From: Thermotoga petrophila RKU-1
Lineage (GTDB): Bacteria > Thermotogota > Thermotogae > Thermotogales > Thermotogaceae
DNA: 64,000 bases
Direction: 5' to 3'
Assembly: GCF_000016785.1 (NCBI RefSeq)
Contig: NC_009486.1
Span: forward strand, 124,001-188,000
The notes below the pieces were generated by a model. It made no database searches. It had not been told where the DNA came from and saw only the letters and a list, made by a program, of their open reading frames with translations. A program made the position numbers and the translations under genes. Each line of letters begins with the position of its first letter. The first letter of the stretch is position 1. Below are positions 14,199-21,121 of this stretch, one piece after another.

Positions 14199-14212
14199 TT
14201 TTTTATTTCCTC

Positions 14213-14313
14213 CTTCCCCGATCCCTCCGCCGGCATTACCCGGATCAGGTTCTTGGGGTCGAGGACTTCCGTCCTCCTCTCAGCCCCGGAATAGGAGCTC
14301 CCCCTGGGGAAGG
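14213..14313 (-). promoter_or_regulatory. TPP riboswitch (THI element) aptamer
   Basis: The minus strand carries the conserved TPP aptamer landmarks. GGGGAGC opens the aptamer, CTGAGAGG forms the pyrimidine-sensing loop, and ACCTGATCCGGGTAATGCCG forms the pyrophosphate-sensing side, followed by GGAGGGA closing the P1 stem. A variable helix (GAGGAC against GTCCTC) lies between. It precedes thi4-thiC-TIM barrel-thiDN and sits just upstream of an intrinsic terminator. Confidence 0.97.
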
Positions 14314-14416
14314 TTTTCGATATTCATTTTTTCAACCTCAATTTTAAAGGATTTTTGTGTGATACAATTTAAATGGAGGTTTCATTTTAGAAAGCGTTCA
14401 ACGGAGGTGAAAGGAA

Positions 14417-15573
<1,157 letters not shown>

Positions 15574-15576
15574 TCT

Positions 15577-15606
15577 GGTCCGCTCCTCGGAGCGGACCTT
15601 TCGATC
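15577..15606 (+). terminator. Terminator after the encapsulin operon
   Basis: GGTCCGCTCC, loop TC, GGAGCGGACC forms a 10-bp stem at 15577-15598, followed by TTTCGATC, a weak T tract. It separates the convergent encapsulin operon and the 171-residue gene. Confidence 0.65.
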
Positions 15607-16120
15607 AAAGAACGTCCAGTTTTCCCTTCGCCCACGTTCCCACTACTTTCCCCGCAATCGCAACTATTCCCAATATTCCAGAATTTTCTCTGACATCTTT
15701 CAAGAACTTTGGAATGTCATAGGAGTTTCTCACGGAATCTTCAAACGAATCTACTACCCTGTCGCATATCGCTTCCTCTTTTCCAAGAACGAGTATTCCT
15801 TTCCCACCAGCGAATACTCCGGTGACGCACACAGACGGTGTGAGTTCAGGGAAGATCTTAACACTTATGCCTTCAAAGAAATGAACCACGATCGGCTGTG
15901 ATATCTTCAGGAAGAACTTCCCATCTCTTTCCAGAGCAAAATCAGACTCTTTGAGAGCATCCACGAGGATCGCTCCGTTCTTTTCGAGGGGAGATCCGTT
16001 CAATGAAAGTTCTTCCGGGAGAACAGCAGATCTATCCACCAAAAGCGTGTATCCGTTCTTCAAGCCCACTCTCTTGAACCTTCCCGACGCAAGGACAGGA
16101 GCTCCTGCAGCAATCCTCAT
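15605..16120 (-). CDS. Unrecognised 171-residue protein
   Basis: I do not recognise the family. It is soluble and moderately charged, with a beta-rich look in the first 110 residues and a C-terminal hydrophobic stretch (SGILGIVAIAGKVVGTWAKG) that could be a membrane-associating or buried helix. The ATG at 16120 follows the strong ribosome site GGGAGGTGAGGAG. An intrinsic-terminator-like hairpin lies only about 15 bases before that site. Expression therefore probably depends on read-through from the cluster upstream (33-codon ORF, GH130-like gene, 71-residue gene). Confidence 0.75.
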   Translation of the reverse strand: MRIAAGAPVLASGRFKRVGLKNGYTLLVDRSAVLPEELSLNGSPLEKNGAILVDALKESDFALERDGKFFLKISQPIVVHFFEGISVKIFPELTPSVCVTGVFAGGKGILVLGKEEAICDRVVDSFEDSVRNSYDIPKFLKDVRENSGILGIVAIAGKVVGTWAKGKLDVL

Positions 16121-16135
16121 CTCCTCACCTCCCTA

Positions 16136-16170
16136 TAAAACAAAAGGGGCCGACCATCCGGCCGGCCCCT
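16136..16170 (-). terminator. Attenuator-like terminator before the 171-residue gene
   Basis: On the minus strand GGGGCCGGCC, loop GGAT, GGTCGGCCCC (16145-16170, one mismatch) is followed by TTTTGTTTT. There is no room for a promoter between it and the next ribosome site. The 13 bases at 16161-16173, which include its 5' arm on the transcript, are exactly complementary to 16211-16223 inside the upstream small ORF. An antiterminator pairing is therefore possible. Confidence 0.7.
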
Positions 16171-16223
16171 CGATTTCAGTCTCACTGCTCACACGAAAAC
16201 TCCCGGTCCTTCGAGGGGCCGGC
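16161..16223 (-). repeat. 13-base perfect inverted repeat (candidate antiterminator)
   Basis: Bases 16211-16223 and 16161-16173 are exact reverse complements over 13 positions (GCCGGCCCCTCGA). The first arm covers codons 23-27 of the 33-codon ORF; the second arm is the 5' side of the terminator at 16145-16170. The first arm can also form its own hairpin (CCGGCCC, CTCGAA, GGACCGG). Confidence 0.7.
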
Positions 16224-16290
16224 TTTTGATCGTAGTGCACATTATCATATCGCTGAGAATTCCTTGCTCAAAGAGTACGAAACTACCCAT
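16189..16290 (-). CDS. Small ORF, 33 residues, possible leader peptide
   Basis: ATG at 16290 preceded by GAGGTGA with five bases between, ending with TGA at 16189. It encodes a 33-residue peptide beginning MGSFVLFEQGILSD and ending in a Pro/Gly-rich tail SRPLEGPGVFV, with one Cys. It lies 42 bases after the GH130-like stop and ends 19 bases before the stem of the terminator. No family is recognised. Either a translated leader peptide that controls the downstream terminator, or a genuine small protein. Codon evidence is too short to decide. Confidence 0.5.
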   Translation of the reverse strand: MGSFVLFEQGILSDMIMCTTIKSRPLEGPGVFV

Positions 16291-16332
16291 TGTCTCACCT
16301 CACAAAGATACGATACCACCGCACTGTTAAAT

Positions 16333-19492: not shown

Positions 19493-19521
19493 TTGTGGTG
19501 TTAATTATCTTATGATATAAT
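19493..19521 (+). promoter_or_regulatory. Predicted tnpA promoter inside the IS
   Basis: TTGTGG (19493-19498), 17 bases, TATAAT (19516-19521). The TTG at 19521 that opens the frame is part of this -10, so translation must begin later. Confidence 0.6.
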
Positions 19522-19538
19522 TGAATGTGGTGATAGGT

Positions 19539-19928
19539 ATGCATATCAAGAAGACAAGGTGGAGTCATTATAATCTGAACTATCATTTTGTGTGGATACC
19601 TAAATACCGCAGAAAAATCCTGGTCGGCTCCATAGCTGAAGAACTTGAACGAATACTCCGCAACACAGCAAAACAACACGGAATAGAAATACTGGCCCTC
19701 TCTATTCAGCCTGATCATGTTTATTTGTTTGTATCGGCGCCTCCGAGATTTTCACCGGCTGAGATAGCAAACCTATTCAAGGGTGTTTCAGCGAGGAAAC
19801 TGCTGGAGAAATTTCCAGAGCTTAGAACCAAAGAGGGCCTTTGGGCTCGAAGTTACTACGTTGGAACAGCTGGTGATGTCTCTGAAGAAACTATCAGGAG
19901 GTACATCGAGGAATGTCAAGACGTGTGA
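19539..19928 (+). CDS. tnpA: Y1 transposase TnpA with altered HUH motif
   Basis: About 129 residues from the ATG at 19539 (MHIKKTRWSHYNLNYHFVWIPKYR). HUH-superfamily single-strand transposase. The catalytic tyrosine region ETIRRYIEEC is present. The metal-binding HUH motif reads DHVYLFV: the second His is Tyr. The codon is TAT where CAT would give His, a one-base change, so the enzyme may have lost metal binding. It overlaps tnpB by 16 bases. Confidence 0.88.
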   Translation: MHIKKTRWSHYNLNYHFVWIPKYRRKILVGSIAEELERILRNTAKQHGIEILALSIQPDHVYLFVSAPPRFSPAEIANLFKGVSARKLLEKFPELRTKEGLWARSYYVGTAGDVSEETIRRYIEECQDV

Positions 19929-21121
19929 TACGAACCTACAAACTCGCCGTACCAGGACACCTGAGTCAAACATGCGAAGAACTCAACCGCACAGCAGCAA
20001 GAATCTACAACAAAACGATGTCTCTCGTGCAAAAGATACACCAAAAGAAAGGCTTCTGGCTGTCCTGGCTCACCGCAGACAAATACATCCTCCGCTGGGC
20101 AGAAAACATCAAAATCCACGTCCATTCAAAGCAGGCATTTGTTCAGCTCTACTTTCAAGCCCTCAAAGGATACTTCAAAGCAGCCAAAAAGAATCAAGAT
20201 GCAAAACCTCCCCACAAGAAAAAACGCTATCTGCCGTTCATATGGAAAGAAAGCGCTGTGAAGCTTCTGCCAGACGGTACCCTGAGATTGTCTTTGGGCA
20301 AAGAACGAGAACCATTTGTTGTACAAACACCTCTCAAACCTCCCCTTCGCATCAAACAGGCAAGACTTGTCTTTGAAGATGGATACTATCTCCACCTTGC
20401 GATAGAGGTGGAGATTGAAGAGAAGAATGCTGGCTCTGGTGTTATGGCGGCCGACCTTGGAGTGCTCCGTCCCATCACGTGCTTTGATGGAAAAGAAGTC
20501 ATCAGCTACCACGGAGGAGTCCTCAGCAGCACTCTTCGCTATCGAAACAAACGCCTTGCAAGTTTTCAGTCTGCCATAGCAGAGTGCAAGAAGGGATCAA
20601 GAAGGTACAACAAGCTTGTTAGTGCAAAGAAAAGAGCCCTGAGACGGCTCAGAAACCAGATCAACGACATCATGCACAAGATCACAAGCAGTTTCATCGG
20701 ACTGTGCCTCAGAAAACAAATCGGCACCATCGTGATAGGAGACGTCACAGGGATCAGAGAAAGAGCAGACTACAGCGACAACGCGAACCAGAAGATCCAC
20801 CAGTGGCAGTTCAGAAAACTCATCGAGATGATAAGGTACAAAGCAGAGCAGTTCGGAATCGAAGTGAAACTCATCTCAGAAGCGAATACAAGCAAGACGT
20901 GTCCTGTCTGTGGTGCAAAGAACAATCCGAACGGAAGAAGATACCACTGCGAAGCCTGTGGTTTTGAGTATCACAGGGACGGAGTTGGAGCAATCAACAT
21001 CTGGAAAAGGTATCCTGGCACAGGCCAGGTAGTAGCGGGCTTGGCCCCCGTCAGAGGTGTGAGGTTTCATCCACACCTCTGTGGCCATGGAGCATCTTTG
21101 GCTCCATGGAAGGTGGCCTGA
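19913..21121 (+). CDS. tnpB: TnpB RNA-guided nuclease, IS200/IS605 type
   Basis: 402 residues. N-terminal RNA/DNA-binding region, then RuvC. Asp of RuvC-I is in MAADLGVLRP and Asp of RuvC-III in YHRDGVGAINIW. The zinc ribbon is CPVCGAKNN...CEACGFEYH. The RuvC-II block reads IVIGDVTGIRER, with Gly where many TnpBs have the catalytic Glu (for example LEDLT in the other copy here). This is a known variant pattern in the family, possibly with a displaced acidic residue. The last 40 residues (GTGQVVAGLAPVRG...) are encoded by the structured right-end region and may double as guide-RNA scaffold. Confidence 0.92.
   Translation: MSRRVIRTYKLAVPGHLSQTCEELNRTAARIYNKTMSLVQKIHQKKGFWLSWLTADKYILRWAENIKIHVHSKQAFVQLYFQALKGYFKAAKKNQDAKPPHKKKRYLPFIWKESAVKLLPDGTLRLSLGKEREPFVVQTPLKPPLRIKQARLVFEDGYYLHLAIEVEIEEKNAGSGVMAADLGVLRPITCFDGKEVISYHGGVLSSTLRYRNKRLASFQSAIAECKKGSRRYNKLVSAKKRALRRLRNQINDIMHKITSSFIGLCLRKQIGTIVIGDVTGIRERADYSDNANQKIHQWQFRKLIEMIRYKAEQFGIEVKLISEANTSKTCPVCGAKNNPNGRRYHCEACGFEYHRDGVGAINIWKRYPGTGQVVAGLAPVRGVRFHPHLCGHGASLAPWKVA

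Follow-up and report, generated by a model that had tools for sequence, protein, structure and literature searches.

A putative ribosome-mediated attenuator with a conserved leader peptide upstream of a COG2122-related gene in Thermotoga

The window analysed here, 64,000 nucleotides from Thermotoga petrophila RKU-1 (NC_009486.1, positions 124,001 to 188,000), contains a 33-codon leader ORF followed by an intrinsic terminator and a gene for a 171-residue protein. Counting the explanation that we prefer jointly with two of its rivals, a stall at Arg24-Pro25 and control by amino-acid supply, the locus is very probably a ribosome-responsive attenuator of some sort. The specific reading, held with moderate confidence, is a ribosome-mediated transcription attenuator in which a pause at Met-Ile-Met would turn the 171-aa gene on. 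Transcription would start just upstream of the leader ORF, with a ribosome trailing the RNA polymerase. A ribosome paused at Met-Ile-Met, or the absence of a ribosome, would leave a segment of the ORF (arm A) free to pair with arm B once B is made, so that no terminator forms and the 171-aa gene is transcribed. A ribosome moving through codons 19-34 would mask A, or occupy the A-B loop, B would then pair with arm C, and transcription would stop. The nascent peptide (F4, E8, G10, L12, S13 and M15-I16-M17) would most likely bring about the pause, with methionine or sulfur supply modulating it. Such a methionine or sulfur signal, suggested by the Met codons and by the COG2122 fold family of the controlled gene, is possible, and we put it forward tentatively.

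All features of the locus lie on the minus strand, where the 5' to 3' order is GH130-type gene (17337-16333), leader ORF, terminator and 171-aa gene. The leader ORF (MGSFVLFEQGILSDMIMCTTIKSRPLEGPGVFV) extends from the ATG at 16290 to the TGA at 16189 and is preceded by the Shine-Dalgarno sequence GAGGTGAG (16294-16301), a purine-rich site being present in all eight relatives. Further upstream is a putative extended -10 promoter element, TGGTATCGT (16310-16318), in which TGGTAT is kept in 8/8 genomes, even at the locus from another genus, where the upstream DNA is unrelated. Transcription is predicted to start at about 16304-16302, which would give a 5'UTR of about 12-14 nt. Extended -10 elements predominate among the promoters of T. 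maritima, in which one short class of 5'UTRs measures 11-17 nt (PMC3636130), and transcription beginning some 13 nt upstream of the leader ATG would fit this class.

Three segments of the transcript take part in the alternative pairings. Arm A (GCCGGCCCCTCGA, 16211-16223, codons 23-27) would supply the 5' arm of an antiterminator; it is the exact 13-base complement of arm B (16161-16173), which serves the putative antiterminator as its 3' arm and the terminator as its 5' arm and pairs with A or with C, never with both. Arm C (16144-16155) is the 3' arm of the intrinsic terminator, which has a stem of 12 pairs (16171-16144), a loop of four and a U tract (16145-16137). Much of this had been claimed in a first-pass annotation of the same DNA, and the small ORF with a good ribosome site, the exact match of A (16223-16211) to the complement of B (16173-16161), the terminator stem with its T tract ahead of the gene start at 16120, and the leader-peptide attenuator layout, in which A:B and B:C exclude each other by sharing B, are all borne out, the last in 8/8 genomes. 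Two details needed revision. The first base of the stem lies 17 nt past the stop codon, and the 19 nt given earlier is the distance to GGGG. Segment A, which was said to fold on itself, does have a weak hairpin partner, A' (GGACCGG, 16203-16209), whose RNA sequence is nearly invariant, even in G004, but the energy of the A:A' hairpin, -8.8 kcal/mol at 37 °C, shrinks to about -0.4 kcal/mol at 80 °C, so that this hairpin is probably marginal at such temperatures.

The 13-base complementarity between A and B exceeds chance. We took stretches totalling 1.66 Mb, 91% of this genome, and compared the 5' arms of 220 terminators with stems of at least 7 to the 150 nt upstream of each. The longest exact complement was 3-7 nt in 215 of them, 8 nt in three and 9 nt in one; a 13-nt complement was present at this terminator alone, the other 219 having at most 9 nt. 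Of the two pairings, A:B is the more stable in each of the eight genomes at both 37 and 80 °C, with energies at 80 °C of -11.9 to -14.7 kcal/mol for A:B and -9.3 to -10.7 kcal/mol for B:C. B:C is the weaker because it contains a conserved G-U wobble, one of its 11 counted pairs, 10 of which are invariant across the eight sequences. The proportion of paired cells in the pair counts was 92% for A:B and 99% for B:C. The alignment check proposed with the first reading thus came out in part as hoped, both pairings being kept in 8/8 genomes, but neither showed covariation beyond that of shuffles in the eight sequences; since the core of A:B is invariant, covariation cannot be demonstrated with a set of this size.

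Of the 14 family genomes, eight encode a close form of the 171-aa protein: seven species of the genus and one of another genus, the latter being the only relative found in a scan of the genome contigs. Each of these eight genomes has a single copy of the leader peptide (E 1e-19 to 1e-24), and no strong match was found in the 95 other Thermotogota genomes searched, so that the genomes with the leader ORF are exactly the eight with the close 171-aa gene. Loss of the ORF and of its complementarity in relatives had been named beforehand as grounds for abandoning the reading; the ORF, A:B and the terminator are present in every one of the eight Thermotogaceae genomes that encode a close homologue of the 171-aa protein. 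The locus in the other genus (L008/L035) is without the upstream GH130 gene and keeps TGGTAT, the leader, the arms A, B and C, and the gene. The distance from the terminator stem to the start codon of the 171-aa gene is 23-27 nt in 8/8 genomes, which leaves no room for a separate promoter; the ribosome-binding site, GGGAGGTGAGG (16123-16133), lies directly upstream of the ATG at 16120.

The pattern of substitution differs along the leader. In codons 3-18, synonymous changes are frequent and amino-acid changes rare, with pN far below pS: G006 and G008 differ by six synonymous and no non-synonymous changes (pS 0.73, pN 0), and G000 and G004 have pS 1.10 and pN 0.25. The first half of the leader is therefore kept as a peptide, and together with the Shine-Dalgarno sequence this selection marks the ORF as a translated one. 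In codons 26-33, pS and pN are similar and there is no purifying selection. The codons CGG CCC of arm A are invariant in all eight sequences, which indicates a constraint on the RNA, as CGG is a rare codon (2.3 per 1000) and there is variation at synonymous sites further upstream. The G004 peptide departs from the others directly after GRP and its reading frame differs past Pro25, and the RNA motif GGACCGG is retained despite the frame change, bar a shift of one base.

These observations bear on two explanations that do without attenuation by a ribosome. The ORF could encode a small trans-acting protein, its terminator ending its own unit and the 171-aa gene being fed by constitutive partial read-through. 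Conservation of the peptide over genus distance would agree with such a protein, but we consider it quite improbable, as it would leave unexplained the complement inside the ORF that is unique among the 220 terminators, the strict association with the 171-aa gene in 8/8 genomes, and the RNA motif kept in G004 where the C-terminal frame is lost. Still less probable is a metabolite-binding leader RNA, be it a riboswitch or a protein-binding RNA, to which the ORF would be incidental. In its favour, the predicted fold of the region is better than those of shuffles (z -2.1), but the ORF is under selection at the protein level, and no riboswitch, T-box or leader RNA family could be assigned to the leader region with Rfam at either gathering scores or relaxed E-values, the best sub-threshold match being weak. 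The large upstream hairpin predicted in G000 (about 16325-16235) is, by inspection, unpaired in most relatives and was dismissed as a functional element on that ground; part of it probably falls before the first base of the transcript.

Within the selected part of the leader, F4, E8, G10, L12 and S13 are invariant residues with synonymous changes, and M15-I16-M17 is likewise invariant. The codons of the last three, ATG ATA ATG (16240-16248), are identical in 8/8 genomes and constitute the proposed pause site; the end of codon 17 is separated from the CCGGCC core of A by 17 nt in all eight. The pattern M.M occurs in 1.3% of 32-aa windows among the proteins of the genome. The earlier argument that the peptide has no amino-acid bias and that the signal would be new was too quick, given that an invariant Met-Ile-Met stands at a place relevant for pausing and that the controlled gene encodes a remote relative of a homocysteine-synthesis family, even if the triplet has only two Met codons. 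Control by amino-acid supply in its plain form, with a shortage of charged tRNA-Met (or tRNA-Cys) stalling the ribosome at Met-Ile-Met-Cys and the remainder of the peptide having no role, would draw on the same motif, on Cys18 (7/8 leaders), on the proper distance from A and on the COG2122 fold of the target, and it has a precedent in the tandem Cys codons of the cysS leader uORFC-8-2 (PMC8632094). We regard it as unlikely, however, since Cys18 is Arg in G004 and since control codons do not require F4, E8, G10, L12 and S13 to be kept through synonymous changes, the peptide of a classical amino-acid attenuator being otherwise poorly conserved. Conservation well beyond the control codons points to an effect of the nascent chain.

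A nascent chain might also act further downstream, stalling the ribosome at Arg24-Pro25 and thus covering A, so that the terminator forms; a signal relieving the stall would switch the gene on. Both residues are invariant, selection on the peptide fades just past them, the peptide of G004 diverges straight after GRP, and all the invariant residues from F4 to P25 would then occupy the exit tunnel. The two residues are, on the other hand, specified by CGG CCC, the core of arm A, where RNA pairing alone suffices for their conservation, and there is free variation in the codons from Met17 to Arg24, which makes this reading improbable as well.

For the preferred reading, a pause at Met-Ile-Met, we modelled the RNA ahead of the ribosome at equilibrium, with the leading edge of the ribosome 16 nt from the first base of the P site. 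With Met17 in the P site at 80 °C, the probability of A:B was 0.36-0.85 in six of the eight genomes, and two codons further on A:B was gone in all eight, with values of at most 0.04 in those six. In this model, a ribosome paused at Met-Ile-Met stands at roughly the last position where A is still unmasked, and the terminator is predicted to form two codons on. The claim that ribosome position decides transcription fits the geometry. In six of the eight genomes the modelled fold switches one to two codons past Met17; in G006 and G008 the terminator was dominant at equilibrium whatever the position of the ribosome. The leaders of these two genomes (L006 and L007) have an extra hairpin, CUCAGCGG:CCGCUGAG, across the leader stop codon, which is absent from the other relatives. 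The dominance of the terminator is attributed to competition of this hairpin with arm A, and control in G006 and G008 would need a kinetic argument. Co-transcriptional kinetics would favour A:B, since B emerges ahead of C. In most genomes, masked folding at 37 °C also favoured the terminator. Having reached the stop codon, a ribosome would leave A uncovered behind it, with uncertain consequence.

The 171-aa gene (TM0784-type, 15605-16120) encodes a shortened, divergent protein of the COG2122/UPF0280 fold. No Pfam match was obtained for it. A comparison of its family with the UPF0280 proteins of other Thermotogota, identified by the NCBIfam PRK04334 models, gave an hhalign probability of 98.6 (E 1e-15), and the sole significant PDB match in Foldseek of an AlphaFold2 model (mean pLDDT 72, two sequences) was DVU1097 (E 2.8e-5), which we take to be a COG2122 protein and which is also a weak profile match, in agreement with that identity. 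Profile and predicted fold together match about 126 columns of COG2122/UPF0280/PRK04334 (the fold of MA1715 and DVU1097), and homology is thus detectable. The protein is, however, about 80 residues shorter, is without the NGGD, CTSS and GHS..G.AD signatures, and scores far below the cut-off of the PRK04334 models (best E 3e-4, for the member in G009). It is therefore considered a relative, not a bona fide member, of the family. Desulfovibrio vulgaris needs COG2122 to make homocysteine (PMC5764234). In several other Thermotogota (L023-L026 and L028-L030), full-length UPF0280 genes lie in apparent methionine operons, with HcyBio-, MetF-, MetH- and aspartate-semialdehyde dehydrogenase-like neighbours according to sequence inspection of their N-termini, the HcyBio identity being confirmed by a family search in G003 only. 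In the eight genomes with the leader, neither HcyBio (DUF39) nor full-length UPF0280 was found; the 171-aa protein occurs without this partner, and an operon link between the two was discarded. No SAM riboswitch was detected in the genus, and no literature on TM0784 was found.

Attenuation by leader peptides is a long-known class of mechanism, described mainly from Proteobacteria, Actinobacteria and Firmicutes. Like trpL, hisL, leuL and uORFC-8-2 of the Rhodobacterales cysS gene, in which control codons let a stalled ribosome leave the antiterminator arm free, the Thermotoga locus combines a short ORF with mutually exclusive antiterminator and terminator and a structural gene directly after the terminator. 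It differs from them in having Met-Ile-Met only and no run of control codons, in the conservation of the whole N-terminal half of the peptide, in the location of the antiterminator arm inside the ORF, before the stop codon, and in its predicted default without translation, which is read-through. The conserved peptide, with ribosome position setting termination or read-through, is closer to attenuators that depend on the nascent peptide, such as tnaC and the msrD leader, but the downstream gene is neither a resistance nor a catabolic gene, and the arrest is putative here, suggested by the conservation of the peptide. ermK is another transcription attenuator of this kind, and the segment GILSDMIMCT of the leader may bear a loose resemblance to the ErmCL core GIFSIFVIST. 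In the literature searched, mostly non-subscription papers, neither this leader nor any leader-peptide attenuator in Thermotogota, the methionine type included, is described, and a survey of premature terminators makes no mention of Thermotoga; the peptide, the host group and the putative signal appear to be undescribed.

If the preferred reading is correct, a conserved attenuator in a hyperthermophile would imply tight coupling of transcription and translation at about 80 °C, and the leader would provide a candidate arrest peptide as well as a handle on a COG2122-type protein in species without a detected SAM riboswitch. A bolder version, that the leader is an arrest peptide which, inside the exit tunnel and at about 80 °C, directly senses a compound of the methionine pathway (methionine, SAM or homocysteine) and controls the shortened COG2122-type protein, as a bacterial counterpart of plant CGS1, is decidedly unlikely on present evidence.

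The surroundings of the locus contain further features. An encapsulin gene (Linocin_M18, 14417-15573, plus strand) is located near the 171-aa gene and convergent to it in the four neighbourhoods read (including L032, L033 and L034). In G004 and G006, inspection revealed a B12-binding radical-SAM-like gene between the two, which is absent from G000 and G009. The encapsulin of T. maritima is reported to bind flavin and COG2122 is distantly ApbE-like, which makes a functional link between encapsulin and the 171-aa protein worth a look. A TPP riboswitch (Rfam RF00059, 74.6 bits; 14205-14314, minus strand) lies upstream of Thi4- and ThiC-like genes, and sequence inspection identified an IS200/IS605-like pair of a TnpA (135 aa) and a TnpB-like protein (402 aa) at 19521-21121 on the plus strand.
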